IMG/VR virus record: IMGVR_UViG_3300049217_000020
Span: 1-39,364 of that record
Strand: one strand, 5' to 3'
Length of the DNA stretch: 39,364 nt
Origin: a virus
Below, one piece after another: positions 16 to 37,035 of this stretch. The notes beneath the pieces are model-generated. The model had not been told where the DNA came from. It did no database searches and saw only the letters and a program-made list of their open reading frames with translations. Each line of letters starts with the position of its first letter. Within the stretch, counting starts at the first letter, position 1. The translations under genes and the position numbers were made by a program.

Positions 16-2127
16 ATGAGCATAAAAAAACTTCTTCTTCTGGTTTTGTTGTTCGTCTTTTCCGTTCCGGCATTTGCTCAACAAAGCAACGGGACAGGCT
101 CAAATCCCGCCACGTATCAATCGCTTTCGCTTTTTGCGCAATCGACAAATTGCTCGGTTGCGGCAAGCTGTATTTGGGAGAAGCTTCCATCAAACGCCTT
201 GACAACTGCCGTAACACTTTCTGGAACGTTCAGTGTTGTCGGGACCGTGGAAGCTTCAGGCGATGGCGGAACCACGTTTCCCGTCACGCTTGGCACATGC
301 AGCGCCGCAGGGACAACGACATATTCAGTCGGCGGGTATACCGACATCCGTTGCAGGATCACGACGTATACAAGCGGGGTGGCAATAGCAACGATCAATA
401 CGACGGTTAATACGGGGCCGCAAGGGCCTGCGGGGCCTGCGGGAGGCGGAGGCAGCGCACCCACAGGAACCGTCTACGTCCCAAGTTCGACAGTCACGAT
501 TTCACCATTGAATGCGGCGTACGGCGGAATTGCCGATGCGACTACGTTGACGGTGGACCTATCCAGCGGGGGAAGCACGCTTGTGTCGGCAGGTCTATTT
601 ACACCTTCTTTTGTCGGGAAGGTTGTTTTCTGCATGTTTAATAATTTTGGCAACGATGCGTTGGCATTGACCACCGTAACAGGCTATACCGATTCAAGCC
701 ATATCACCGTAGCGGGAACAATCGTCAACGCATTTGCGGGCGCGTCTTGTGCGTTTGCAAGTCAGAATTTTGCGACGGCCTTAAACGCCGCTACAGCGGC
801 TCTTCCTCCTGGTGGAACGTTAGTTGTGCCTTGCGGTTATATGATTATCTCTGGAGCAGCTAGAATCTTCACCACCTTTACCAATGCCGGTTCCGGTCCT
901 GTGAACATTCAGGGCTGTGCGAACGAGGGTTCTCATTTTATTATGGACTACGCAACGATGAGTACAACATCGCAACCGGCCATCAGTATGCCTAATTTAA
1001 GCTTAGATAGTTGGTTTACTGATATGACCTTTGACACTGTAGGGTCGGGTAATTTTCAGCCGGGAGCTTCCATCCAAACCCTAATTAACCTCTCAGGCGG
1101 GCACGTTCAAAATATAGATGTGAATAATTGGAACTCTTCGGGAGGCTTCTGTTTCACGACCAACACAGATGGTTCGACTTGGCGCAATGTAACATCGTCA
1201 GTGGGGGGTTGTGATATTCCCTTACACCTATTCAATGGGTCAGTTACGCTGATTCAAGATGGTGTGCGTGGCATAGTTGGCGCGACAGCCTCTATAAAGA
1301 TTGAGGGCCAAGAAACTGGCGATTCTCTCATTGGCGGGAGGTATTTAAACGGAATTATCATCAATGGAGCTTCTGGTAATTCTAGCAACATAAATTTTTA
1401 TAACGTAACTGCGGGACCAGCAGCAAGTAATTGTAGCGTAAGTATGTTGACTAACTCTTCTCCAACACACGCTATCTGGACGGGTGGTTCTATTACGGCG
1501 GCTCTTTCAGGAAACTCTACGGGCGTCTGTCTTGCCTCTAATACATTTTTCCACTCTACCAATGCTGAAATAGATTCTGTAGGCACCGGCTTCGCTGTCA
1601 ATGCTTCCTCTGGTTCTGGGTTTTACGATAGTGGGACTTACTCTTTCATGACAGGAGCGGGGTTTTTTACTGGAGCTGGTTCCCTCAATGGCAAGTCAAC
1701 GCTCACAGGGTCAGCTTATACCAATGCTACGACATCGTTCACTAACGTAGTAGGTAGTACAGGTTCGGCCTTTCAGTGGTATGTTTTACCGAATCAAAAT
1801 TTAAACGTCACCTGCCATCTTTATTATCAAGCGGCAGCTACAGGCGGGTTGAACATCGAGTTTATCGGACCGGCAAGCCCCACGTCGGTGGTATATGGAT
1901 TGAATGATCCTAACGCGGCTACCACTTTCAATTCGTCGGTAGCCACATCGTACAGCACGTCTCTCGGTCAAGTCGTATCCACAGCCAGCACCAACTTCGA
2001 TGCAACTGTCACTCTTAGCGTTGTGAATGGAACAACGGGAGGGGCTGTAAACTTGCTGGCAAAGGCTAGTGCTAACGTGGCGAATGGTTTAACGATTCAA
2101 CCCGGAAGTTATTGTCAGTCTCAGTAG
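16..2127 (+). CDS. Tail fibre/tailspike-like beta-helix protein with Sec leader
   Basis: A 703-residue protein, probably a host-contact tail fibre or spike. Residues 1-22 look like a signal peptide: Lys-rich start, Leu-rich core and an AFA-Q cleavage site. A short collagen-like stretch, GPQGPAGPAG, lies near residues 134-143. From about 160 to 540 there are Gly/Ser/Asn-rich short beta repeats of the pectate-lyase-like beta-helix kind. The last 130 residues form a separate beta-rich domain of the sort found at phage fibre tips. It starts at the first ATG; the Shine-Dalgarno site is weak, but translation is probably coupled to an upstream frame through an ATGA overlap if the genome is circular. 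The next gene follows after 26 bases. No catalytic residues are identifiable. The fibre role is inferred from context and composition; the Sec leader is unusual for a virion protein. Confidence 0.75.
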   Translation: MSIKKLLLLVLLFVFSVPAFAQQSNGTGSNPATYQSLSLFAQSTNCSVAASCIWEKLPSNALTTAVTLSGTFSVVGTVEASGDGGTTFPVTLGTCSAAGTTTYSVGGYTDIRCRITTYTSGVAIATINTTVNTGPQGPAGPAGGGGSAPTGTVYVPSSTVTISPLNAAYGGIADATTLTVDLSSGGSTLVSAGLFTPSFVGKVVFCMFNNFGNDALALTTVTGYTDSSHITVAGTIVNAFAGASCAFASQNFATALNAATAALPPGGTLVVPCGYMIISGAARIFTTFTNAGSGPVNIQGCANEGSHFIMDYATMSTTSQPAISMPNLSLDSWFTDMTFDTVGSGNFQPGASIQTLINLSGGHVQNIDVNNWNSSGGFCFTTNTDGSTWRNVTSSVGGCDIPLHLFNGSVTLIQDGVRGIVGATASIKIEGQETGDSLIGGRYLNGIIINGASGNSSNINFYNVTAGPAASNCSVSMLTNSSPTHAIWTGGSITAALSGNSTGVCLASNTFFHSTNAEIDSVGTGFAVNASSGSGFYDSGTYSFMTGAGFFTGAGSLNGKSTLTGSAYTNATTSFTNVVGSTGSAFQWYVLPNQNLNVTCHLYYQAAATGGLNIEFIGPASPTSVVYGLNDPNAATTFNSSVATSYSTSLGQVVSTASTNFDATVTLSVVNGTTGGAVNLLAKASANVANGLTIQPGSYCQSQ

Positions 2128-2153
2128 CAAGCCCAGACCCGGAAAAGAGAATC

Positions 2154-3326
2154 ATGGTCATATTTGAAAAGTTGACTCCAAGGGAAAACCAAGTGGCGAA
2201 TCTGGTTTTGGAGTGCCTTTCCGATAAGGAAATAGCGCCAAAACTCAATATCACGGAGAGAACGGTGGCTTACCACATGGACCATATTTACAGGAAGTAT
2301 GGATTCGAGATTGGTCAAGATCATTCTCGCACCATGAGATCCAAGATCGTCCTGCGCCTGGCGAAGGCGGCCGGGGTCCTTGCGGCGTGTTTGATTCTGT
2401 GTGTGGTGCCAGCGCGCGCGCAGAACTCGGCGAAGCACTCGGCGACGATAACGTGGGATCAGCCAACTCAACCTACGGGCGAGGTTATTACCTCGACGAA
2501 CATCTACCGCGACTCGAATATGCTGGCAAACGTGCCCGTGGTTATGCCCGAGTATGTTGATTCCGCTGTGAATACCGGCGAAACTCACGCATATTCGCTT
2601 TCTAACGTCGATACGATGGGCGTTGAGAGTGCTCTCTCCGTTCCTCCAATTACCGTAACAATTCCGGGATCCGCTCCTCCGCCTCCCACATGCACGACCA
2701 TCGCGGTAGGATGCCGTATCTCAGTGAACTCTACGGCCAACATTCGAGCAACCGCGCCCAACAACGCCTTTGGAGCATTGCTTGGCACCGAGCCGGGGGG
2801 CGCTCTAGGAACCGTCACAATCGTTTCCACGGCGACCATACCGAATTGCTCGGGCTGCGTGTGGATTCAGGTGCACTTCGATACCTGCACAGGTGCGGCG
2901 CTAGTCGCTGCGAAATGCCAAGGGTACATGGGCAGCAACAACATGACGCTCGTCAATACGGCGCCGGTCGTCGCGGTCGCAATTACCCCTAAAACGGCCG
3001 CGCTGACAATCGGCCAATCCCAGCAATTCACGGCTGTGGTGACGAACGCTACCGATACAAGCGCGACGTGGAGCAGCGATGCTCCCGGGGGATTATTTGC
3101 GGCGTCAACGTCGGGCACATTTACGGTGACCGCTACCAGCAATGCGGATTCCACGAAATCGGCGACAGCTACAGTGACGGTGACTGCACCGGCACCAAAT
3201 CCCACGGTGAGCACATCAGGCAATATCATCACGCTTGTTCCGACGAACATTCCGCCGGGAACCGCCTACACATGCAGCATCGTGGTTGACAAAGTAACGG
3301 TAACTTGTTCAGGATTGACCCAATGA
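2154..3326 (+). CDS. LuxR-type HTH fused to a membrane/signal segment and FN3, SH3 and Ig-like domains
   Basis: A 390-residue protein with a surprising order of parts. Residues 7-52 are a clear GerE/LuxR-type HTH, opening LTPRE and carrying SDKEIAPKLNITERTV. Residues 61-89 are a basic, then hydrophobic stretch ending ARA-Q, which can be a signal peptide or an N-in transmembrane anchor. About 95-170 resembles FN3 (TITWDQP, IYRDS, GVESALS). About 187-267 resembles a bacterial SH3 domain, and 272-345 a BIG2 Ig-like domain (ITPKTAALTIGQSQQFTA). The ATG at 2154 follows GGAAAAGAG. An in-frame ATG at 2334 could start the secreted part alone, but its ribosome site is poor. The stop overlaps the next ATG (ATGA). 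Two readings are possible: a ToxR-like membrane regulator, or a secreted tail/surface protein with an upstream HTH extension. Confidence 0.7.
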   Translation: MVIFEKLTPRENQVANLVLECLSDKEIAPKLNITERTVAYHMDHIYRKYGFEIGQDHSRTMRSKIVLRLAKAAGVLAACLILCVVPARAQNSAKHSATITWDQPTQPTGEVITSTNIYRDSNMLANVPVVMPEYVDSAVNTGETHAYSLSNVDTMGVESALSVPPITVTIPGSAPPPPTCTTIAVGCRISVNSTANIRATAPNNAFGALLGTEPGGALGTVTIVSTATIPNCSGCVWIQVHFDTCTGAALVAAKCQGYMGSNNMTLVNTAPVVAVAITPKTAALTIGQSQQFTAVVTNATDTSATWSSDAPGGLFAASTSGTFTVTATSNADSTKSATATVTVTAPAPNPTVSTSGNIITLVPTNIPPGTAYTCSIVVDKVTVTCSGLTQ

Positions 3327-15480: not shown

Positions 15481-16095
15481 TCACGCCTTCATCTCTGGGA
15501 CCTTCAATTTTGCGCGACAGATGTCAGCGCATTTGACTTGCATTTGTTTTTTAGCGTCGGAGTCGGCGTCGGCGGCGGCGGTGACGTAGGCGGCGTAGGC
15601 GGCGACGTCGGCGGCGTGGGTGGCGAAGGCCGCGGCGTGGGCCGCGTAGGCGGCGACGTCGGCGGCGTGGGCGGCGGCGTGGGCCGCGTAGGCGGCGACG
15701 TAGGCGGCGACGTCGGCGGCGTGGGCCGCGTAGGCGGCGACGTCGGCGGCGTAGGCGGCGTAGGCGGCGTAGGCGGCGTAGGCGGCTCTTACCTGACCGA
15801 TAGTCGCTTCGCCCATCGCCCATTTTCTCGCCGTTTCAACTGCAACTCGCGGCACCTGATCTTTGGGGTATTTCTTTTCAAAGATTGGCAGCGCCAATTC
15901 CGCGCAATCGCAAGCGGCGATAACTACATCCTGCTGCGTCGGCCAACCATCCTTTCCGACCATCTTGCCGCACAGCCACAACATCCAGTCGCCGCGCTCG
16001 CACTCTGCCCACGTTGTTTTCAGATCGCGATTACCGCGCCACACTACTGCGCCTTCACACGCATGAAGCGAGTTCAGAAGTTCTGTTAATGTCAT
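15481..16095 (-). CDS. Imm5-like protein with Ala-rich repeat
   Basis: A 204-residue protein. The N-terminal 100 residues (TLTELLNSLHACEGAVVWRG, GDWMLWLCGK, CAELALPIFEKKYPKD, VAVETARKWAMGEAT) resemble the Imm5 immunity-protein pattern known from polymorphic-toxin loci and phages. Then comes a run of about 75 residues built from AAY, AAH and AADV units, followed by a short Cys-containing end (KCADICRAKLKV). ATG 16095 is preceded by GGAGG at 8 bases; an in-frame ATG 15 bases earlier makes the alternative ME-GKT-M. No toxin partner is present. It may be an antitoxin-like or host-takeover protein. Confidence 0.68.
   Translation of the reverse strand: MTLTELLNSLHACEGAVVWRGNRDLKTTWAECERGDWMLWLCGKMVGKDGWPTQQDVVIAACDCAELALPIFEKKYPKDQVPRVAVETARKWAMGEATIGQVRAAYAAYAAYAAYAADVAAYAAHAADVAAYVAAYAAHAAAHAADVAAYAAHAAAFATHAADVAAYAAYVTAAADADSDAKKQMQVKCADICRAKLKVPEMKA
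15565..15790. repeat. Imperfect tandem repeat encoding Ala-rich Y/H/DV triplets
   Basis: On the plus strand the sequence alternates GGCGGC with GTA, GTG or GAC(G), giving units such as GGCGGCGTA and GGCGGCGACGTCGGCGGC. On the minus strand this is Ala-Ala-Tyr, Ala-Ala-His and Ala-Ala-Asp-Val, in phase with the gene at 15481-16095. Copies are near identical, so expansion by slippage is likely. Confidence 0.88.
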
Positions 16096-16112
16096 TGTCT
16101 TGCCCTCCATTT

Positions 16113-16328
16113 TTACCTCAACCCGAAAATGTACATCATCAGCAACGCTCCGGCTGCTGCGGCGGTGCAGATGAATCCGGCGATGGCGAACATCACGCGG
16201 TGGTCCCATGATTTTTTGTCTCCGTGGCGCGTGCCTCCGCGCACGAATGTGCAATCATTGCAATGGCGGAACGGAATTTCCATCCGCCCGTCGGCGCATG
16301 TTTTACATCTGCGGATGTAGGTTTTCAT
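16113..16328 (-). CDS. Zinc-ribbon membrane protein
   Basis: A 71-residue protein starting in an ATGA overlap with the preceding gene (16328). The N-terminus carries CKTC and HCNDC, a C4-type ribbon. Residues about 44-67 (VMFAIAGFICTAAAAGALLM) form one transmembrane helix, with only GLR left after it. An N-in, membrane-anchored zinc protein is predicted; such small proteins can alter host envelope or division functions, but no specific function is known here. Confidence 0.62.
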   Translation of the reverse strand: MKTYIRRCKTCADGRMEIPFRHCNDCTFVRGGTRHGDKKSWDHRVMFAIAGFICTAAAAGALLMMYIFGLR

Positions 16329-23685: not shown

Positions 23686-25818
23686 ATGCCGAACACGTAC
23701 AACTCGGATGGCAAGACGTTTCTCGAACAGGCGCGGAACCGCTTCAAGTATTGCCTGGAGTCATGGGCCGACATTCGAGAAGAGCACGATATTGACTTGC
23801 GCTTCCTTGCCGGGGATTCATGGGATGAAACCGAGAAGCGCAAGCGCAAGCGCAAGCACATTCCGGCAATTCACCTGGACGAGTTGACGCAATTCTTGAA
23901 TCAGCTCGTCAACGATGTAAGACAAAACAAGCATGCGGTCAGCGTGCTTCCGAATGGAGATGGCGCAACGGATGCGAGTGCTAGATTACGCGCCGATTGG
24001 ATCCGCGGAGTTGAGTATCGTTCACAGGGGCAGACAGCCTACATCACGGCGTTTGAAGGCGCGGCTGGAGGATCGTATGGATTCTGGAAAATTGAAACCT
24101 TCTACGAAAGCGAAAAAAGTTTTAATCTATCGGCCCGCATCGTCCCCATCACAAATGCCAACACAATCATCTTCGATCCCGACTGCAAGAAGTACGACTG
24201 CTCCGACGCCGAAGATTGTTGGGAAATTGATTTCATTTCTCACGATGCTTTTCGGCGGCGTTACCCGAAAGCGGAAATCAGGACGTTCAGCGACGAAGTA
24301 AGGAATGTTGCTCCCGACTGGATCAAGCCCCAGCAGGTTCAGATTGCTTCCTGGTGGAAAGTAAAAACAGAAGAAGTGGTGTTATATCTGGTTGATGTTG
24401 ACGGCGGCCAGCCGGTTGTGATGCGTGAAGATGAGTTGCCCGAGAATTTCAACCGGAAGAAAATCCTCAAATCGCGCGATTATGAAGATCGCCGCGTCAT
24501 TCAGTACATCATGAACGGCGTGGAAGTGCTCGAAACAAACGATCCGCGCAATGGGAAGGGGTGGCCTGGGCAATGGATTCCAATCATTCCGGTATGGGGT
24601 AAGGAGCTATTTATCGATGAAGGCAGCGGATCGAAGAGAATGCTATTCTCTTTGATCCGCTTGGCGCGTGATCCGCAAAGGTTGCTGAATTATTACGCTT
24701 CACAGGAATTGCAGGAAGCGAAGAAGTCGCCACTCGTTCCCTACATGGGTCCGGTTGGAATGTTCTCGAATCAGCCGGAACAGTGGGATTCGATTAACGA
24801 TGAGCCGCGAGCGTGGGCCGAATATAGTTTGCCGGAAGGTTATCCGCCGGGCACAGAACCTAAGCGCGTGCCATTCGTTCCCAACTTCCAGCAATACGAA
24901 ATTGCGAAGGAGGCCGCCAGCCGCTCGATCATGAAAGCAATGGGCATTTCTCCGTTGCCTGAAGCCGCGCAACGCACGAATGAAAAGTCGGGCATTGCAT
25001 TGAAGCGCATTCAGGGCGAGCGAGAGCAAGGCTCATTTCATTTTATCGATAATTTTGACCGCTCGATTGTTTATTGCGGACGCCAGCTTGAGGATTTATA
25101 CGACAGAATTATTGACACGCCTCGTGACATTCCACTGAGCGCGGAAGATGGCACGCATTCAATGGGGCGTGTCAAGGACCCAAATAACCCGAAGAACAAG
25201 CAGGATAAGGGCGAGCATGAAGTCACAATTACCACAGGACCAAGCTTTGATTCGCAGCGCGAAGAAGCGGCGAACTTTGCCGACACGCTTGCAGGAGTGC
25301 AGGGAGTATTCCCTATTATTGGAGATTTGCTTGTTAAACTGCGCAATCTGGGACCAATTGGCGACAAGATTGCAGAACGGCTTACTCCACCGCAATTCGC
25401 CGGACAAGATGACAGCGTTCCTGCGACAGCTAAAGCAGCTCTCGCACAAATGCAGCAGCACGTCCAGCAACTTCAAGCCGTGATTCAGCAATTACAGCAG
25501 GAAAAAGCCGCGAAGATGGTTGAGAAGGACGCGCAATACCGGATTGCAGCATTGCAGGAAAACACGAAACTGGTTGTCGCGCAAGCCACGCTGCAGCACG
25601 AAAACGCGGAAACAATTCTTCAGGCTGAACTGGCAAAGATTCAGACGATTCTTGGTCAGGCGCACGAAGGAATCCAGAACGAGGCCGATCAGCAGCATCA
25701 ACACGATTTGATCGATCATCAGACGCAGGCGGATCAGGCGCTTGCATCGCATCAAGCTTCGCTTGAGCCGCCGCCCGAGGCTCAAGGTAGTGACACGCAA
25801 TCCGGGCAAGGAGCGTAA
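23686..25818 (+). CDS. Portal protein, P22 gp1-like
   Basis: A 710-residue portal (P22 gp1 has 725). Typical portal residues: an N-terminal DLRFLAGDSWDETEKRKRKR, the HLDELTQFLNQLVNDVRQNK helix and AFEGAAGGSYGFWKIETFYE. Then ANTIIFDPDCKKYDCSDAED and the C-terminal Gln-rich helical barrel-like extension (QMQQHVQQLQAVIQQLQQEK). It forms the dodecameric channel through which DNA enters and leaves the head. The Gln-rich helix continues to the end of the protein and probably forms the barrel and an internal tail. It directly follows the small beta-rich gene. Confidence 0.9.
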   Translation: MPNTYNSDGKTFLEQARNRFKYCLESWADIREEHDIDLRFLAGDSWDETEKRKRKRKHIPAIHLDELTQFLNQLVNDVRQNKHAVSVLPNGDGATDASARLRADWIRGVEYRSQGQTAYITAFEGAAGGSYGFWKIETFYESEKSFNLSARIVPITNANTIIFDPDCKKYDCSDAEDCWEIDFISHDAFRRRYPKAEIRTFSDEVRNVAPDWIKPQQVQIASWWKVKTEEVVLYLVDVDGGQPVVMREDELPENFNRKKILKSRDYEDRRVIQYIMNGVEVLETNDPRNGKGWPGQWIPIIPVWGKELFIDEGSGSKRMLFSLIRLARDPQRLLNYYASQELQEAKKSPLVPYMGPVGMFSNQPEQWDSINDEPRAWAEYSLPEGYPPGTEPKRVPFVPNFQQYEIAKEAASRSIMKAMGISPLPEAAQRTNEKSGIALKRIQGEREQGSFHFIDNFDRSIVYCGRQLEDLYDRIIDTPRDIPLSAEDGTHSMGRVKDPNNPKNKQDKGEHEVTITTGPSFDSQREEAANFADTLAGVQGVFPIIGDLLVKLRNLGPIGDKIAERLTPPQFAGQDDSVPATAKAALAQMQQHVQQLQAVIQQLQQEKAAKMVEKDAQYRIAALQENTKLVVAQATLQHENAETILQAELAKIQTILGQAHEGIQNEADQQHQHDLIDHQTQADQALASHQASLEPPPEAQGSDTQSGQGA

Positions 25819-27075: not shown

Positions 27076-28314
27076 GTGCCGAATACATTCGCATTTCCGC
27101 AATGGGTATCCATGGATGCCCTGCGGTTTCTGCTCAACAAGCTCGAAGTTGCCAGCATTTTCAACACGGAATGGCAGAAGGAATTTGAACGAGACTTCCC
27201 GATTGGCAGCGTGACGCAGGTAAAGATTCCGCAATCTTTCCTGATTCGTGACGGCATGGGCTACAGCCCGCAGGCAATCAACCGGCTGACCACAACAATC
27301 AACTGCAACCAGATTTTGGGAGTTGATTTCGAGTGGGACAGCTTCGAACAAGCTCTGAACATGGAGCGTTCGAAAGAGGAAATCCGCAAGCAGTATCTTG
27401 AGCCTGCCGTCGCTCAGATGGCTCAGGAATGGGATTCCCGCGCCGCGCAGTTCGCTTATCAGAACACAAACAACGCAGTTGGAACGCTGGGCACCGATCC
27501 GAACACAGTTCAGATTTTTGCTCAGGCTCGTCAACGGTTGTTTGAACTCGCGTGCCCCCCGGGCGGAGAAAAGGCTCTGTGCATTCCGCCACAAGTCAGC
27601 ACTTCGATGGTTCCGGCCTTGCAGACGTTACTCAATCCGCAAGACGACATCTCGAAGCAATTCAAGGAAGGCTCGCTCGGCAAGTTGCATGGTTTCGATG
27701 TGTACGAGTGCATGTCGCTGTGGCGTCATACAGCCGGGACATGGGCCGCGCATGCGAACACCGTCAACACAGCCAACGTGAACAACGGCGGAAACCAGAT
27801 CGGCATTAACGCAACTGCGGCAGACACGGTGAATGCCGGCGATATTTTCACGATTGTCAACGTGAACCAGGTCAACCCGCGCACGCACCGATTCCTTTCT
27901 CCAATCGTGAAGCAGTTTGTCGTGCTCCAGCCCATCATTTTCGCGGGCGGCGGCGCGGCGGCTGATTTCCTGATTGTTTCTCCGGCGCTGTTCGGACCCG
28001 GCTCGCAGTATCAGAACGTGGATGCATTGCCGGTTAACGGCGCTGCAATTTCCGTCACGTTCACTTCCGGTCAGGCTGGCGCTCAGGCACTCGCTCTTCA
28101 CGGCGATGCGTTTGGGCTTGCTGGCGTAAAACTGGAAGAGCCGAAGGCGACTGAAATGACTTCACAGGCTCGCGATCCTGAAACGAAGATGGCGATCAGG
28201 TTCGTGCGAATGTTCGATCCCGTGCAGTCGAAGATGATCAACCGATGGGATTCCGTCGGCGGATTTGGCCAGCTTTACAGTGATTCATGTGCTGTAAGAA
28301 TTCTGTGTGCGTAA
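27076..28314 (+). CDS. Major coat protein, P22 gp5-like
   Basis: A 412-residue capsid protein (P22 gp5 has 430) beginning with GTG 27076. N-terminal PQWVSMDALRFLLNKLEVAS, then QKEFERDFPIGSVTQVKIPQ, and a C-terminal FDPVQSKMINRWDSVGGFGQ plus HGDAFGLAGVKLEEP are typical of the P22 coat family, an HK97-like fold with an insertion domain. The middle carries a beta-rich insertion (NNGGNQIGINATAADTVNAG) that may be the I-domain equivalent. It assembles the capsid. Confidence 0.9.
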   Translation: MPNTFAFPQWVSMDALRFLLNKLEVASIFNTEWQKEFERDFPIGSVTQVKIPQSFLIRDGMGYSPQAINRLTTTINCNQILGVDFEWDSFEQALNMERSKEEIRKQYLEPAVAQMAQEWDSRAAQFAYQNTNNAVGTLGTDPNTVQIFAQARQRLFELACPPGGEKALCIPPQVSTSMVPALQTLLNPQDDISKQFKEGSLGKLHGFDVYECMSLWRHTAGTWAAHANTVNTANVNNGGNQIGINATAADTVNAGDIFTIVNVNQVNPRTHRFLSPIVKQFVVLQPIIFAGGGAAADFLIVSPALFGPGSQYQNVDALPVNGAAISVTFTSGQAGAQALALHGDAFGLAGVKLEEPKATEMTSQARDPETKMAIRFVRMFDPVQSKMINRWDSVGGFGQLYSDSCAVRILCA

Positions 28315-29594: not shown

Positions 29595-30430
29595 TGCCGA
29601 TACTTCCGGCTGTTCCGCCGCAACCGCCTCCGGCGCCGCCGAACGTGACGACGTTTCAGACGATTTGTCAGAACGCGCTTTGGGAGATCAACGTTACCGC
29701 TCCCGGGGAGAATCCGTCAAACGATGAATTGGCGTTTGCGCTCGACAAGGCAAATCAAATAGCGGATAGCTGGAGTGCGCAGAAGGTCTATATCTATGCT
29801 TCGCAGCTTATTTCGCAAGCCCCAGCGCCGCCAAATGGCAATGGAGCGGCATTCCTGCTCGTTCCCGGGCTTGCTCCGCACACAGTAGGCCCGGCATGGG
29901 GCGGAGCACCTACGCTTCCGGTCCTAACCGAACGTCCCGTGCGAATCGCCAATGTAAACGTACTGCTGAACAATGTGACGCCAGTTGTGCGGTATCCGCT
30001 CACAAGACGAGATAAAGATTGGTGGGCAGGGCAGCGCGTGCAAGGGATTCAGACCAGCTTACCCACGGATTATTACTATCGCCCCGATTGGCCGCTTGGC
30101 TCAATCTTCTTCTGGCCCGTGCCGAATTATGCATATGGCGTGGAGTTGGAAATCGAGAGTGTCATAACCGGCGGCACATCGCTGCAAACCGTGTTTCAGG
30201 CTCCTCCAGGGTACGAACTGGCGATGACGTTGACGCTGGCCGAGTTGCTGTGCTCATCGTTTGAGAAGCAGCAGCCGTCTCCGATGCTTGTTGCATCGGC
30301 AATGCGTGCAAGGAACGCGGTGCAGGGGTTGAACAACCTGGCACCGCGAATGAGTCTTGATGATTTTGGACCGTCGTCGAGCGAGAAGCCGCGAGCATCG
30401 TTTAACTATTACACAGGAATGAGTAGATAA
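29594..30430 (+). CDS. Head-tail connector protein, P22 gp4-like
   Basis: A 278-residue protein. TFQTICQNALWEINVTAPGE, SWSAQKVYIYASQLISQA, TPVVRYPLTRRDKDWWAGQR, TSLPTDYYYRPDWPLGSIFF and PPGYELAMTLTLAELLCSSF follow the pattern of P22 gp4-like tail accessory factors. It is larger than P22 gp4 (166 residues). These bind the portal after packaging and close the head. The gene overlaps its neighbours by single bases on both sides. Confidence 0.8.
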   Translation: MPILPAVPPQPPPAPPNVTTFQTICQNALWEINVTAPGENPSNDELAFALDKANQIADSWSAQKVYIYASQLISQAPAPPNGNGAAFLLVPGLAPHTVGPAWGGAPTLPVLTERPVRIANVNVLLNNVTPVVRYPLTRRDKDWWAGQRVQGIQTSLPTDYYYRPDWPLGSIFFWPVPNYAYGVELEIESVITGGTSLQTVFQAPPGYELAMTLTLAELLCSSFEKQQPSPMLVASAMRARNAVQGLNNLAPRMSLDDFGPSSSEKPRASFNYYTGMSR

Positions 30431-31968
30431 TGGCACGTTTCGGATTAATTGGACCATCATACTCTTCGCAGTCGCTCAATGCCGACTGCCAGGTTACTAT
30501 GAATTGGTACACCGAAATTCTGGAGCAGGTAAACGGAAAGTCGGCAATGGTGCTCTATCCGACTCCCGGCGAGTCTGTTTTCGCGGCTCTGCCCGGGCAA
30601 CCTGTGCGCGGTCAGTGCGAAATTAACGGGCGAGCATTTGCAGTCTCGGGAACGAATTTCTGTGAAGTGTTTGCCAATGGCACTTTCAGCGTCATCGCTC
30701 AGACGGGTAACGATCTTTCAAATGTTTACATGGTTGCGAGTCCGCAGCAACTTGTTATTGTTTCCGCCGGTAATCTCTATGTTTATTGGCTGCAAACCAC
30801 GACAGGCGGAACGAATCCGCAGGTTGCAGGAACATTTAAGAAGATTCCGAATACCAATTTCACGCTTCCCGGCGGATCGATTGGTATTCCGCAGCAGGTG
30901 GAATACATCGATGGATTCTTCATTTTACTGATGCGGAATTCGCAGACAATTTATCTATCGACGCCGTTTGATGCGTCAACGTGGCCCGCTTTGCAATTTA
31001 TAACCGTGTCCGTATTCTCGGACAATGTGCAGTCGATCATCGCCAATCAGCGCCGATTGTGGGTGCTGGGTCGCAAGCGCAGCACTGTGTATTACGATTC
31101 AGGAAGCGCGAACATCTTCGATGTTGACCCAAGCGGAACGATGGAAACAGGGACAGCATCGACATCTGCAAGCGTGCGCCTCGATAACGCTGTGTTTTGG
31201 CTCGATCAGGATGAGAGAGGCTCTGGCGTCGTACGGCGAGGCGAAGGATACACACCGACGCGGGTTAGCAACCACGCCATCGAATTCGCAATGCAGGGCT
31301 ACCCGACAATCGCCGACTGCGTTGCTTACAGTTACCAGGATCAGGGACACGCGTTTGCTGTGTTCAATTTTCCCACTGCGAATAAAACATGGGTTTACGA
31401 TGTGGCGACAAACTCATGGCATGAGCGGTCATTCTTTAATTCGCAGACGGGTCTGCTTTCGATGCACAAGAGCCAGAATCATTCATTCGCGTTTGGCAAG
31501 CACCTGGTCGGCGATCCATTCAGCGGGAACCTGTATCAGTTGTCGATTAACACGCCAACCGATAATGGCGGGCCGATCAGGCGCATTCGACGTTCTCCGC
31601 ACATTTCGACTGAAAACAAGTGGACGTTTTACAATGAACTGATTCTGGATGTTGAGGCGGGGCTTGGGCCTCAGCCGCCATTGCTCGATGGCGCAGGGAA
31701 TGCTCGCGGGCCGCAGATCATTCTTCGCTGGTCGAAGGATTATGGGCATACGTGGAGCAACGAATACATGCTCGACGCTGGGCAAGCGGGACAATTCAAG
31801 CAGCGGTTGCGGAAATCGCGCATGGGTCGGGCGCGGGACATGGTATTTGAGATTTCGACTACCGATCCGATTCCGTGGCGAATCATTGAAGGGTACATTG
31901 ACGCCGATGGACCTGCCCCGATGAAGGCGAAACAGAGATTGGCGTCAACGTATGGGCAGGTAACTTAA
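30430..31968 (+). CDS. Tail accessory factor/packaged-DNA stabiliser, P22 gp10-like
   Basis: A 512-residue beta-propeller-like protein (P22 gp10 has 472). GPSYSSQSLNADCQVTMNWY, MVLYPTPGESVFAALPGQPV, RGQCEINGRAFAVSGTNFCE and the C-terminal GRARDMVFEISTTDPIPWRI are typical of packaged-DNA stabilisation proteins (Phage_stabilise family). It binds under the gp4-like ring and forms the hub for tail spikes or needle. Starts in a TAATG overlap. Confidence 0.85.
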   Translation: MARFGLIGPSYSSQSLNADCQVTMNWYTEILEQVNGKSAMVLYPTPGESVFAALPGQPVRGQCEINGRAFAVSGTNFCEVFANGTFSVIAQTGNDLSNVYMVASPQQLVIVSAGNLYVYWLQTTTGGTNPQVAGTFKKIPNTNFTLPGGSIGIPQQVEYIDGFFILLMRNSQTIYLSTPFDASTWPALQFITVSVFSDNVQSIIANQRRLWVLGRKRSTVYYDSGSANIFDVDPSGTMETGTASTSASVRLDNAVFWLDQDERGSGVVRRGEGYTPTRVSNHAIEFAMQGYPTIADCVAYSYQDQGHAFAVFNFPTANKTWVYDVATNSWHERSFFNSQTGLLSMHKSQNHSFAFGKHLVGDPFSGNLYQLSINTPTDNGGPIRRIRRSPHISTENKWTFYNELILDVEAGLGPQPPLLDGAGNARGPQIILRWSKDYGHTWSNEYMLDAGQAGQFKQRLRKSRMGRARDMVFEISTTDPIPWRIIEGYIDADGPAPMKAKQRLASTYGQVT

Positions 31969-32219
31969 TGTCAACGACAGGACAGCCTGTAGCGCCTCCG
32001 CCAGCGAGTACTGCAATCGTTGACAAGCAGGGGAATCTTACTCCGCCGTGGATTCAATGGCTGACAAGCATTTGGGATTCGGTTACCGGGCCAGCGCATA
32101 CCACGGCTCCGGCAACATCGGCGGCGAATGGTTACGCGGGGCAATTGGCTTATGATCAGAATTTTCTATATGTTTATGTGGGGAGTGCATGGAAAAGAAT
32201 TCCGCTGAACTCATTTTAG
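31968..32219 (+). CDS. Small tail protein, N-terminal head-binding-like
   Basis: An 83-residue protein in a TAATG overlap. It begins with a Pro/Thr-rich STTGQPVAPPPASTAIVDKQ, then NLTPPWIQWLTSIWDSV and AYDQNFLYVYVGSAWKRIPL. This pattern resembles adaptor/head-binding segments of short tail proteins in podoviruses. Its 3' end overlaps the acyl carrier protein gene by 31 bases. Confidence 0.6.
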   Translation: MSTTGQPVAPPPASTAIVDKQGNLTPPWIQWLTSIWDSVTGPAHTTAPATSAANGYAGQLAYDQNFLYVYVGSAWKRIPLNSF

Positions 32220-32410
32220 ATATCATCGCGGAAGTGGCGGATGTTCCGAAATCGGAACTGCGTTCCGATGCCACATTCGAGAAACTTGGAATGGATTCCC
32301 TAGATTTTATTCTTCTGATTCAGGAATTACGCGACAGGATAGGTCCGATCACGGATGAACAAGCAATGAAGATTGAATCGGTGGGACAGCTTTTGGAGGC
32401 TTTTTGCTGA
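32189..32410 (+). CDS. Acyl carrier protein
   Basis: A 73-residue protein with the ACP layout: acidic helical (LILDIIAEVADVPKSELRSD, ATFEKLG) then the phosphopantetheine attachment site MDSL (Ser37) and LDFILLIQELRDRIGPITDE, ending VGQLLEAFC. E. coli ACP has 77 residues and Ser36. ATG 32189 has GGGGAG 5 bases upstream and lies within the end of the preceding gene. If phosphopantetheinylated by a host enzyme, it could carry an acyl chain. The next gene, a GNAT, overlaps its stop by 7 bases, so the pair is translated together in the virion operon. Confidence 0.85.
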   Translation: MEKNSAELILDIIAEVADVPKSELRSDATFEKLGMDSLDFILLIQELRDRIGPITDEQAMKIESVGQLLEAFC

Positions 32411-32859
32411 CGTACCAAATCGAGCGATGGGCTGATTTTGTGAAGGATGGAAGGGAGTTGTTCCCTGAGCATTATAAGGAACTAGCCCGCGACCAAGACA
32501 AGATTAAGCTCGATATCAATGAAGATTTGTACGTGGACGCCGACGCGCGTGGAATAGGTCATATTGTCACAGTTCGCGATAGCGGCAAACTCGCGGGATA
32601 TACGATTCTTGGCCTTATGCCGCACTTGCATTACAAGAGTGCGGGGCTGATGGCGATGATCGACGTGTACTACCTGATGCCGAAATATCGCAAGGGCGGA
32701 ACGGGGGCAAAGATGATCATGTTTGCCGAATCAACATTGCGAAAGAAAGGCGTCACGAAGATTTATTTCAGCACGAAGGTTCATCAGAACAATGGCCCAT
32801 TACTCGAAGCAATGGGCTTCACGCATTCGGATGATGTTTACACGAAGGTGTTAATCTAA
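32404..32859 (+). CDS. GNAT-family acyltransferase
   Basis: A 151-residue protein from TTG 32404 (GGAGG upstream, 4 bases), CTG 32407 also possible. GNAT features are clear: a leading helix, beta-strands DLYVDADARGIGHIVTV and GKLAGYTILGLMPHLHYKSA, motif A YRKGGTGAKM (the acyl-CoA pyrophosphate loop, Arg-x-x-Gly-x-Gly), then helix FAESTLRKKGVTKIYFSTKV and GFTHSDDVYTKVLI. The variant with PHLHYK and YLMP is familiar from phage-encoded GNATs in structural regions. With the ACP directly upstream, the donor might be acyl-ACP instead of acetyl-CoA. The target is unknown. Confidence 0.85.
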   Translation: MLTYQIERWADFVKDGRELFPEHYKELARDQDKIKLDINEDLYVDADARGIGHIVTVRDSGKLAGYTILGLMPHLHYKSAGLMAMIDVYYLMPKYRKGGTGAKMIMFAESTLRKKGVTKIYFSTKVHQNNGPLLEAMGFTHSDDVYTKVLI

Positions 32860-33731
32860 TGGGCATCGGGACAGCAGTCGGCATCGGAGGAATTGCAGCC
32901 GGAGTAGGCGGCGCGGTTGCATCAACGTCCGCCGCTGGAACTCAAGCCGACGCCGCCAACAACGCCACGATTACTCAAGCTCAAGAGGCGCAGAACGCGC
33001 TTGATTTTCAGAAACAGGAATGGCAAACGCAGCAGACGAATGAAGCTCCATTCCTGCAAGCGGGGCAGCAGAGCATTGGCAACATTCAATCGGAACTGGC
33101 GCAAGGCAACAATGGTCCCTTTGCGCCGTGGACCGGGCAATTCACAGCGCCGACCGCCGAAGAAGCTGCGCAGACCCCGGGCTATCAATTCCAATTACAG
33201 CAAGGCGAGCAATCACTTCAGAATTCAGCAGCGGCGAATGGCGGACTGCTTACAGGTGGGGCACTGAAGGGGATTGATCAGTATTCTCAGGGACTTGCAT
33301 CGACGAATTACCAGAACACGTATCAGAACGCTCTGACACAATACCAGAGCGCGTACAACACGTTTCAGAATAATCAGGCGAACCTGTTCAATCGGCAAGC
33401 ATCGGTTGCCGGAATTGGTCAAACGACAGCGGGGCAGCTTGGCTCGCAAGGTCAGGCGGCAGCATCGAACGCTGGCAATATTAGCGTGAACCTGGGACAG
33501 CAGATTGGAAACAATTTGCAGAACGCGGGGGCTGCTACGGCGAGCGGATATGTGGGAGCGGCGAATTCATTGACGAGCGGAGTCAATGGAATCACTGGAG
33601 CAATGACGTTGCAGCAATTGCTTGCGGGACAGACTGGCGGATATAACGCTCCATTTTACGGATATACCGCTCCATTTTACGGGCCTACCGATCAGCAGCT
33701 TGGGTACGATCCCACGGGAGGTGCCGTCTAA
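32859..33731 (+). CDS. Ejection protein, P22 gp7-like (probable)
   Basis: A 290-residue protein starting in a TAATG overlap, very rich in Gln, Ala, Gly and Asn. Ala-rich hydrophobic N-terminus (GIGGIAAGVGGAVASTSAAG), then EAPFLQAGQQSIGNIQSELA and TPGYQFQLQQGEQSLQNSAA, as in gp7-like ejection proteins. A short repeat NAPFYGY-TAPFYGP occurs near the end. These proteins are packaged in the head and enter the host envelope with the DNA. Identification by pattern and position. Confidence 0.7.
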   Translation: MGIGTAVGIGGIAAGVGGAVASTSAAGTQADAANNATITQAQEAQNALDFQKQEWQTQQTNEAPFLQAGQQSIGNIQSELAQGNNGPFAPWTGQFTAPTAEEAAQTPGYQFQLQQGEQSLQNSAAANGGLLTGGALKGIDQYSQGLASTNYQNTYQNALTQYQSAYNTFQNNQANLFNRQASVAGIGQTTAGQLGSQGQAAASNAGNISVNLGQQIGNNLQNAGAATASGYVGAANSLTSGVNGITGAMTLQQLLAGQTGGYNAPFYGYTAPFYGPTDQQLGYDPTGGAV

Positions 33732-35293
33732 TGGCTTCCATTCCTTTGCCCTCTCTCAGCATTCGACCTCCCGAGAATCCGCTTGACCAGTACGCGAAAG
33801 CACTATCCGTGAAATCAATGATCGGCGGGCAGCAGATACAGCAGGAACAACTCAAGGGTGCGCAACTCGAAAACCAGAATGTGCAGCAGTCGATTGCCGA
33901 CCGCAATGCGATGACTCAAGCGTTGAAAGATTGGGATGGTCAGGATTTTAACGCGCTTCCATCCCTCGTTCTAAAAAACGGCGGTTCGGCCAATGCTGTA
34001 TTTGGATTGCGAAAGCAGATTCTCGACCAGAAGCAGACGCTATCGAAAATAGCTTCGGATGATGCCACGACAGGCAGCAAGAATCTTGAAACTATTATCA
34101 GCAAGCGCGACCAGATTGCCGGAAGCTTGGAATCGCTGGTTGATCCCAATTCCGTGTCAGACGATAATTTACACACCGAAGCCACAAAAACAGTTAACGG
34201 ATTGATGGCTTCGGGAATGATCGACTCTGAACATGGGCAGCAACTGCAAAGCGTTATTGACTCGACGAAGGACCCGAAGACGCTCCGCACAGGCATCGAT
34301 CATTATGCAAAGACTCAGATGGGCGCGAAGGCCCTTGCAGAGCAAGCCTTACAGCAAGCCAATAGCGGCAAGGCTGTAGCGGAGGCGAATCTCGCCAATC
34401 AAAAAGTGAAGCTGTATTCGAATACGAAGCCTGGAGACTTCGATCAACTGATCGATCAGCTTGTCCCCCCTGTGCAGGGAAATCCAAACTCGGACTTGAA
34501 TCAGCAAGCAAAAACAATGGCGAACGGCTTGCTTGCTCGCGGAGATTATGAAGGTGCTGCAAAGTCTCTTGAAAACATTCAGCATGTCGTCAATCAGCGA
34601 TCCGAAACAAACTTTGTGCAGAATCGTGAAGATTACAGGCAGGCGCTGAATCGCCAGGCAAATCAGTCCAATCAATTGCAAAAGAACGGCCTCGAACAAC
34701 TCGATAAAGTGTGGACCGATCCGCAGCACGGTTATACTCAGTTCCTGGCGCAGGCAAACGCGACAAAGACGGCGATTGCCGACGCGAAGGATGGAAACGA
34801 GCTTGCCGCATCGCTGGCACCGTTGATGACTGTTCTCGGAGTGAATAGCTTTGCCGGAGTCCATCGCATCAATCCTCAGGAGTATGAATCCGCCGGTCCT
34901 GGAGTCGGTAGCGTATATCGTCACATCAATACCGCGCTCGATAAAGCGGCGTCTGGAAAATTGAATCCGGATACCGCTTCTGAAATGGGCACGCTGATCG
35001 ATCAACTCATAAAATCGAAGTACGACTCGCTTCTTCCCGCGTCTCAACTCATCGCTAAAAATGCGGGACTTGATTCGACGAAAACCACCATTTTTGATAA
35101 GGATGGAAATCCGAACACGCTTGACAATGCCGCGAAGGGGGTTGTCGCGCCAAGGAATCCGGCGCAGCAAAACATAAACCCCCCAGCCGGAAAGACAACT
35201 GTGTACGACCCGGAAGGCACGCCGCACTTTGTTTTTTCCAATAAGGTGAATGATTTTCTGGCCGATCCTCAGTACAAAGGATGGCATCGCTAA
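33731..35293 (+). CDS. Ejection protein, P22 gp20-like (probable)
   Basis: A 520-residue Gln/Ala/Asn-rich helical protein starting in a TAATG overlap. It contains GGQQIQQEQLKGAQLENQNV, then charged helices (LNRQANQSNQLQKNGLEQLD) and a C-terminal Lys/Gly-rich region. Its size and place among the ejection-type genes agree with the second ejection protein of P22-like phages (gp20). No catalytic motif is visible. Confidence 0.65.
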   Translation: MASIPLPSLSIRPPENPLDQYAKALSVKSMIGGQQIQQEQLKGAQLENQNVQQSIADRNAMTQALKDWDGQDFNALPSLVLKNGGSANAVFGLRKQILDQKQTLSKIASDDATTGSKNLETIISKRDQIAGSLESLVDPNSVSDDNLHTEATKTVNGLMASGMIDSEHGQQLQSVIDSTKDPKTLRTGIDHYAKTQMGAKALAEQALQQANSGKAVAEANLANQKVKLYSNTKPGDFDQLIDQLVPPVQGNPNSDLNQQAKTMANGLLARGDYEGAAKSLENIQHVVNQRSETNFVQNREDYRQALNRQANQSNQLQKNGLEQLDKVWTDPQHGYTQFLAQANATKTAIADAKDGNELAASLAPLMTVLGVNSFAGVHRINPQEYESAGPGVGSVYRHINTALDKAASGKLNPDTASEMGTLIDQLIKSKYDSLLPASQLIAKNAGLDSTKTTIFDKDGNPNTLDNAAKGVVAPRNPAQQNINPPAGKTTVYDPEGTPHFVFSNKVNDFLADPQYKGWHR

Positions 35294-37035
35294 TGGGGAA
35301 AAATGATTATGGCCTTGAAGCGGCGAATGTCTCTACGCAGAACGCGTATGGGCTTGAGCCTGCTTCCGCGAATGGTCCTACAATCAGTCCCGGAAAGTCG
35401 TGGTCTGATATTTTCGCGGAAAGCGGCGATGCTCCTGCGATTACCGATGCGTTGGAAAAGCTCGGGCAAATGGCAAGCTTCACTCCGCAAGGCGAAAAAG
35501 AGCATCCGATTCAAGCAGCAGTAGGGCAGATGGTGGATAAGTTGAAAGGGTATCTTTTCGGTGGCGCTGTAAACAAGCAGAACAACATCGGCACAGGTGA
35601 GTACGGGATGCTCAACAATCCTGTTGCAGGCTTGGTGATGGCGGCTCCCGAAGATGAAACCATCAATCTCGTTCGAAACATTGCGAAGCATCCCGTGGAA
35701 GCCGCCAAAGCCGCTGTTAAATCGTTGTCGAGCACTGATGCAGGCCGCGCGGTAACACAAACACTCTCGCCCGAGATGGCCGCGACTCCAGTATCGATCA
35801 CACGCAGCGCGGGAACAACTGGCGGAGCGGCCACGACGCAAATCACCAATGAAGATGTTTTGCAGCACGCTGCCGATTTAGGATTAAAGATGTCTCCGGC
35901 TGAAGCATTGCAAACCGATTTCGCCAAAGGGCAGCAGACTCTCGGAGAAAGTGCGCCGATACGCGGAGCGAATATAAAGGCGGCAACCGCTGCGGACAGG
36001 TCAAAGCTTTCGGATGCGGTCGAAGAGTTTCAGGACAAGCTAGACCCTGCGCGATTGGGGTTAACTTCCGAGTCGGCAGGAGAGCATCTGCAAAATTCGG
36101 CGCAAATAGCTAAAGACGTGATGAAGGAAAACGTCAATAATGCTTACGATTCGGTAAAAGAGCAACAAGCGGATTTAGCCGGAGACGCGACCGGAAGACT
36201 TCGCAAACTGATTCATGATGAAAAATTCGCCAGACAGCCGAGTGCAGCTGTAGAACAGCCCGTGCTGCAAACAAGCGCGGCAAAATCGGCGCTTGATGAT
36301 ATTGAAGCAAGTCTTTCCGATCCTGCGATGCATGGCAGGCAATCGATTCAATCGTTGCGCAATCTTCGCACTAATTTTCTGGAAAAGGCCAATGCCTACG
36401 GTCAAAACGCTTTATCTGATAGTGGTCAGCGGATTTATAAGCTTGCGGCTTCTCAGGTGGATCGTTCCATTATGGATGCTGCAAAGGGAACGCCTTTCGA
36501 GGAAACTTTCCGGGCTGCGGGCGCTCAAAACGCGAAGCTTCAGGAGTTGTACAACCAGCCAGGATCGCCGCTTTATCGCATCCTTAACACTGATGATCCG
36601 GCCAAAGTTGCCGATGGAATCCTCAATCGAGGATCGGTCCATGAAATTGAAACATTGAAAGGCGAGAATTTTGATTTGGGGCCGCTTGCGAGGCAAGCCG
36701 TAGAGGATATAAAGAGCGGCGGTTATCGCATAACGAAAGACGGACTTGGCGGTTATCCCGATACTTTTCTGCGATCTTTGCTCGGTCCCGACCAAACTCG
36801 TGAATTGTATTTGAAGTCTGAACTAGCGCGAAGGTTAAGCGAAAACTACAACCCTTCAGGGACAGCGAAGATGTTGATGAGCGGATCGCAGTTTAATCCG
36901 AAAGTTGCTGTTGCTTCGCAAATCGCGGCCAGCAGGGCTGCGCGTGTAGACCCGTTATCGTTTTTACCGAAATCTCCAATAACCGGAGAGACTTTAGCCT
37001 CGCCGGAAGAATTGTTCAAGAGGCCATCGCCATGA
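35293..37035 (+). CDS. Ejection protein, P22 gp16-like (probable)
   Basis: A 580-residue protein from ATG 35293 (TAATG overlap); an in-frame ATG at 35281 is possible. Helical and Ala/Lys/Glu-rich (AVEEFQDKLDPARLGLTSES, FETFRAA-like regions), with several regions like LRTNFLEKANAYGQ and GGYPDTFLRSLL. No lytic transglycosylase signature is visible. It fits the third, largest ejection protein (gp16) of P22-like phages by position. It overlaps the next gene by 4 bases. Confidence 0.6.
   Translation: MGKNDYGLEAANVSTQNAYGLEPASANGPTISPGKSWSDIFAESGDAPAITDALEKLGQMASFTPQGEKEHPIQAAVGQMVDKLKGYLFGGAVNKQNNIGTGEYGMLNNPVAGLVMAAPEDETINLVRNIAKHPVEAAKAAVKSLSSTDAGRAVTQTLSPEMAATPVSITRSAGTTGGAATTQITNEDVLQHAADLGLKMSPAEALQTDFAKGQQTLGESAPIRGANIKAATAADRSKLSDAVEEFQDKLDPARLGLTSESAGEHLQNSAQIAKDVMKENVNNAYDSVKEQQADLAGDATGRLRKLIHDEKFARQPSAAVEQPVLQTSAAKSALDDIEASLSDPAMHGRQSIQSLRNLRTNFLEKANAYGQNALSDSGQRIYKLAASQVDRSIMDAAKGTPFEETFRAAGAQNAKLQELYNQPGSPLYRILNTDDPAKVADGILNRGSVHEIETLKGENFDLGPLARQAVEDIKSGGYRITKDGLGGYPDTFLRSLLGPDQTRELYLKSELARRLSENYNPSGTAKMLMSGSQFNPKVAVASQIAASRAARVDPLSFLPKSPITGETLASPEELFKRPSP

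Follow-up and report, generated by a model that had tools for sequence, protein, structure and literature searches.

In soil bacteria, a dedicated acyl carrier protein (ACP) gene lies beside that of the FeeM acyltransferase, and this cellular FeeL-FeeM system yields a small molecule. In polyketide synthases, GNAT-like loading domains are found next to ACPs and are proposed to load them from CoA, and in several cellular complexes ACP acts as a non-catalytic subunit. The GNAT fold recurs among enzymes that use acyl-ACP. FeeM-type N-acyl amino acid synthases are GNAT-fold acyltransferases of this kind (PMC8762209), and LuxI acyl-homoserine lactone synthases have the same fold, with the use of acyl-ACP or acyl-CoA differing among enzymes and switched between them (PMC4234381). 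HlyC/RtxC acyltransferases have a GNAT-like fold, take acyl-ACP as donor and acylate a membrane-acting protein encoded next door, and one acyl-ACP GNAT, ApxIC, is without CoA-binding elements (PMC8339906).

Both components are known separately from phages. Phage ACPs are usually filed as auxiliary metabolic genes (PMC11705849, PMC8224337, PMC5463345), and an Acidobacteriota virus paper names an acyl carrier protein among the predicted genes with no role given (PMC11924767). Phage-encoded ACPs form phrog_5934, and the phage ACPs examined elsewhere have no recognisable acyltransferase neighbour. GNATs are likewise known at the locus studied here. The poorly understood P22 gp14 (DUF2824, PF11039) is encoded between gp10/gp26 and the ejection gene gp7, and T7 gp13 (PF11090, DUF2833) between gene 12 (tail) and the internal virion proteins; in Pseudomonas phage YA3 a DUF2833 gene at the same place is annotated as an acetyltransferase (PMC7326022). 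Furthermore, a same-locus GNAT occurs in cultured podoviruses, namely Vibrio ICP2 and other Zobellviridae, Pseudomonas PfAn1 and Xanthomonas PBR31, which have no ACP beside it; the matches showed 23–35% identity. In short-tailed phages a GNAT-like gene is common and widespread between the genes for tail closure and those for ejection, and in the literature searched we found no report of its modified target. Unlike P22 and T7, which have no ACP there, the phage described here carries an ACP gene directly before its GNAT gene.

The ACP and GNAT genes of the virion operon

The window analysed comprises all 39,364 bases of an IMG/VR virus record. Profile matches and gene order identified its right part as a P22-like morphogenesis operon, in the order portal, scaffold, coat, Hc3/gp10, an 83-residue gene, ACP, GNAT and three ejection-region genes. 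The scaffold profile score fell slightly short of the cut-off, and the second and third ejection-region proteins had no family match in profile searches.

23686–25818, + strand: P22-like portal protein of the operon (PF16510, 372 bits)
27076–28314, + strand: P22-like coat protein of the same operon (PF11651, 51.5 bits)
30430–31968, + strand: head closure Hc3 / P22 gp10-like protein (phrog_578, 320 bits)
31968–32219, + strand: 83-residue gene where P22 has gp26 (tail needle), overlapping the ACP start by 31 bases at its 3′ end
32189–32410, + strand: acyl carrier protein gene, 73 residues (PF00550, AF2 fold, Foldseek)
32297–32299, + strand: Ser37 codon TCC in the motif M-D-S-L-D, predicted 4′-phosphopantetheine attachment site
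32395–32399, + strand: GGAGG, ribosome-binding-like, inside the ACP gene and 4 bases before the GNAT TTG
32404–32859, + strand: GNAT-family acyltransferase gene, 151 residues, TTG start (PF00583, phrog_1249, AF2, PDB GNATs)
32859–33731, + strand: first ejection protein, corresponding in position to P22 gp7 (phrog_598 DNA ejection, 77 bits)
33731–35293, + strand: second ejection-region protein, P22 gp20 position (by position only)
35281–37035, + strand: third ejection-region protein, P22 gp16 position (by position only)

The initial annotation of this sequence had reported a 73-residue ACP with an MDSL site at Ser37 and a GNAT whose gene overlaps it by 7 bases, and these points were borne out. 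It had also placed the pair between the gp10-like and ejection genes, which is correct apart from its omission of the intervening 83-residue gene. The ACP ATG is overprinted on W-K-R-I codons near the 3′ end of that gene (window 32188–32219), and the same WKR overlap, at identical offset, was present in 10 of the 29 ACP-GNAT pairs collected below. The GNATs of three ACP-less phages (L018, L029 and L037) likewise start with M-E-T.

Both family assignments held, with profile scores above the cut-offs. The ACP scored 47.4 bits against PF00550 (PP-binding; curated cut-off, 20.8) and matched phrog_5934 weakly (20 bits); tblastn of the window ACP against cultured phages gave no match at E 1. Its AF2 model (pLDDT 89) formed four helices, with Ser37 as the first residue of helix II (37–50), and the best Foldseek matches of this model were solved ACPs (TM about 0.8–0.9). 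The GNAT scored 37 bits against PF00583 (cut-off, 20.7) and 52 bits against the phrog_1249 acetyltransferase profile, and its AF2 model had a pLDDT of 95.7. In a structural search with this model, PDB GNATs were retrieved at Z 15–16.5, headed by 1z4e (Z 16.5, 142 residues, 2.4 Å). The closest solved GNATs were acetyl-CoA enzymes, acting on polyamines, thialysine, aminoglycosides, glucosamine-6-phosphate and the N termini of ribosomal proteins. LuxI, FeeM and HlyC were absent from the top 50 structural matches, which does not exclude a relationship, and the window GNAT gave no Pfam match at E 0.1 to RtxC/HlyC (PF02794), LuxI (PF00765) or FeeM's Pfam family. LuxI enzymes also differ in serving signal synthesis, outside any virion operon.

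Recurrence and joint inheritance of the pair

When viral contigs were scanned for close relatives, neither the ACP nor the GNAT by itself retrieved anything, and relatives were therefore sought via Hc3. Hc3 scans of viral and genome contigs, supplemented by a few loci from the first GNAT scan and from phage records, yielded a non-redundant set of 61 intervals spanning Hc3 to the ejection gene, collected mainly via Hc3 and not via the ACP. A GNAT was present in 57 of these intervals and an ACP in 19, and all 19 ACPs lay directly 5′ of the GNAT. Scanning with a broader GNAT alignment added 10 viral contigs carrying the pair, two of which (L127 and L128) are close kin, and the ACP was missing there in just one virus. 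In total, 29 distinct viral contigs carried the pair, and in 29/29 it occupied the same locus as ACP followed by GNAT, overlapping or abutting, with the GNAT starting 0–58 bases before the ACP gene ends. The conserved adjacency on which the initial annotation had staked its proposal was thus found in every pair, and this recurrence, together with the profile scores and predicted folds, excluded chance.

Sequence conservation was concentrated at the attachment motif. Asp36 and Ser37 were the sole invariant columns in the 19-ACP alignment, in which mean column identity was 34%, and Asp-Ser-Leu or, once, Asp-Ser-Met was found in all 29 ACPs, indicating that the prosthetic group matters. PF00550 matched 18 of the 19 ACP homologues at E 0.01, and ACP dN/dS was 0.10–0.37 in the four locus pairs where it was computable.

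The pair was not found in cultured phages, and none of the papers searched, all of them open-licence, described a conserved ACP-GNAT cassette within a virion operon, so that an earlier report elsewhere is possible. No cryptic ACP was found upstream of the ACP-less GNATs, and hidden ACPs in those phages were rejected on this empty search. In two phages with a GNAT and no ACP, a small non-ACP gene of 82–83 residues (L013:4838–5089 and L073:8606–8854) overlaps the GNAT start by 4 bases. As 4 of the 11 genome-contig matches, including the pair-bearing L100, were binned to Acidobacteriota, these bacteria are plausible hosts, phage-contig binning being weak evidence. A host gene origin was rejected, since this GNAT type occurred only in the one phage contig among 396 Acidobacteriota genomes.

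Since a GNAT was found in 57 of the 61 intervals and P22 gp14 and T7 gp13 occupy the same spot, the GNAT is therefore the older and wider feature, and the ACP is an addition in one group known so far only from uncultivated genomes. The window GNAT did not match the DUF2824 profile. The C-type GNATs of relatives at this locus scored 16.7–24 bits against it (cut-off, 25) and matched GNAT profiles at similar scores, and P22 gp14 itself gave a weak but colinear match to them, so that the DUF2824 family seems to be part of the GNAT superfamily, with scores below the formal cut-off. The loci behind this tie are P22 gene 14 (L112:4912–5367) and the C-type GNATs of L020, L021 and L079. T7 gp13 was rejected as a sequence homologue of the window GNAT family, as neither Pfam searches nor profile comparison gave a match.

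The distribution of the ACP was then compared with two trees. ACP presence required 6 changes on the GNAT tree, compared with 11 for Hc3 and about 15 with shuffled labels; branch support was moderate, no more than 2 and 5 changes were forced by the starred branches, and the Hc3 tree was built quickly, for which reasons the comparison is read as good, not final. Individual loci illustrate the pattern. L029 has the Hc3 nearest to that of the window (74%), yet its GNAT is short and of a different type, and it lacks an ACP; L100 combines an ACP with an A-type GNAT, whereas its Hc3 sister L068 has a different GNAT and no ACP. The GNATs accompanied by an ACP fall into two types that are well separated, namely the A type and that of L012, L034 and L069. 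Furthermore, ACP and GNAT distances remained correlated given Hc3 (partial Mantel r 0.37, p 0.0006). As the ACP tracks GNAT type better than the phage backbone, the two genes are inherited and exchanged together as one cassette, for which these comparisons are good but not final evidence. The coupling of ACP and GNAT that the initial annotation had proposed is therefore well supported by adjacency, by the tracking of GNAT type, by the partial Mantel test and by the invariant serine.

These results bear directly on how phage ACPs are classified. The ACP could be a separate moron or auxiliary metabolic gene acting on host fatty acid synthesis or on ACP-regulated proteins, its GNAT neighbour being accidental, as the published filing of phage ACPs and the existence of other phages whose ACPs have no recognisable acyltransferase neighbour would suggest. 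With a GNAT abutting the ACP in 29/29 pairs and ACP presence following GNAT type rather than backbone, we regard this explanation as very unlikely, and a lone moron was rejected on the adjacency. Since phage ACPs are usually assigned an auxiliary metabolic role in host fatty acid synthesis, the pair would change that filing.

The same data also fit, in part, an explanation in which the GNAT acetylates a virion protein from acetyl-CoA, as an ordinary N-acetyltransferase would, and the ACP is a non-catalytic stabiliser or regulator, with holo-ACP or its acyl chain serving as a structural ligand. Most relatives keep the GNAT without an ACP, the CoA loop is retained (see below), and a stable complex would also yield constant pairing and correlated divergence. 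However, the sole invariant residues are the Asp-Ser of the attachment motif, which point to the prosthetic group beyond a mere surface, and we consider a purely structural ACP rather unlikely.

Acyl donor and direction of transfer

The reading that best accounts for the whole, and to which we give about an even chance, is that the phage ACP is the dedicated acyl-thioester partner of the GNAT; the overlapping genes and their joint inheritance argue that the ACP serves the GNAT. Under this partnership, the ACP and the GNAT would be produced together, the translation of their overlapping genes probably being coupled. Since no ACPS-family gene was found in the window record, the host AcpS would very likely add the phosphopantetheine at Ser37. 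By analogy with cellular enzymes, the ACP most likely then presents an acyl-thioester, from which the GNAT would move the acyl group to an amine late in infection, with FeeM, the acyl-ACP-using LuxI enzymes and HlyC as models. Because GNAT-fold users of acyl-ACP are known (LuxI, HlyC/RtxC and FeeM) and the ACP is linked to the GNAT, acyl-ACP is taken as the donor, a proposal that could go either way.

Several features of the GNAT count against an acyl-ACP donor. The window protein keeps R96, G98 and G101 of the CoA-type loop R-x-G-x-x-G, so that it may use acetyl-CoA; its loop, R-K-G-G-T-G, fits the pyrophosphate-loop pattern Q/R-x-x-G-x-G/A, and its homologues mostly have R-x-G-x-x-G. CoA-binding elements are lost in ApxIC, whereas the phage GNAT keeps its loop. 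Moreover, the nearest structures are acetyl-CoA enzymes, and GNATs of the same clade occur without an ACP (L001, L003, L082 and L105). The loop is one residue shorter in four ACP-linked GNATs, and no clear difference in loop or charge was found between ACP-linked and ACP-less A-type GNATs.

The initial annotation had proposed acyl transfer from the ACP through the GNAT to a target. The coupling stands, whereas acyl flow may run in either direction, given the CoA-type loop and the acetyl-CoA structural neighbours. Flow could be reversed, with the GNAT loading an acyl group from CoA onto the phage ACP and a host or phage enzyme then using the acyl-ACP; the retained loop and the acetyl-CoA-binding neighbours speak for this, and adjacency and serine conservation fit it equally well. 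However, a GNAT is far commoner at the locus than an ACP (57 versus 19 of 61), and loading an ACP therefore cannot be the GNAT's basic job; nor was any acyl-ACP consumer recognised among the window proteins scanned. On balance, loading of the ACP by the GNAT is unlikely.

Candidate acceptors and minor observations

For the dedicated-partner reading, the acceptor would most likely be a virion component or something met in assembly, given the GNAT's place at the P22 gp14 / T7 gp13 position; this is the weakest step of the mechanism. The data suggest that these phages supply an acyl-group carrier of their own, with which something is modified during particle building. An ACP beside a GNAT also hints at phosphopantetheine thioester chemistry, and a dedicated carrier offers a simple handle, since a label on the ACP could be followed to its destination.

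The virion setting also bears on whether a protein is modified at all. The acyl-ACP and the GNAT might instead make a small molecule, an N-acyl amino acid or N-acyl polyamine, in a FeeM-like manner and with no protein modification. Acetyltransferases of polyamines, thialysine and aminoglycosides are indeed among the nearest folds, and acyl-ACP is used by N-acyl amino acid synthases, FeeM among them, but the location within a virion assembly operon, at the position of P22 gene 14 and T7 gene 13, makes a small-molecule product highly improbable.

The ejection or tail proteins that the initial annotation had offered as acyl targets are possible but unsupported. We looked for a lysine marking the ACP-bearing phages in the 61-phage alignment of the first ejection protein and found none, which counts against the dedicated-partner reading. 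This protein has few lysines, and its lysine content is lower with an ACP. At column 229, lysine occurs in 19 of the 42 ACP-less phages and in 0 of the 19 with an ACP, which may be a lineage effect. The idea of an ACP-linked lysine in this protein was rejected, the single strongly associated column having lysine only in ACP-less phages. A more specific version, modelled on HlyC, would have the phage ACP, charged by the host, donate a fatty acyl group, which the GNAT would attach to an ejection or tail protein to ease that protein's entry into the host envelope. We hold it to be possible, if doubtful; were it true, a tailed-phage virion would be lipid-modified by enzymes that the phage itself encodes.

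Other genes drew attention during the analysis. In L001 (MW202796), a phage gene annotated 'ubiquitin' (89–334) precedes the GNAT by a few genes within the structural region. In the window, a 703-residue frame (16–2127) had no family match in profile searches, and a 257-residue protein on the minus strand (15481–16254) contains an Imm-5-like putative immunity domain (PF21805, 45 bits). Finally, a 404-residue frame (window 2112–3326) shows an odd pairing of an N-terminal LuxR/sigma-4-like helix-turn-helix with a C-terminal Ig-like phage structural domain.
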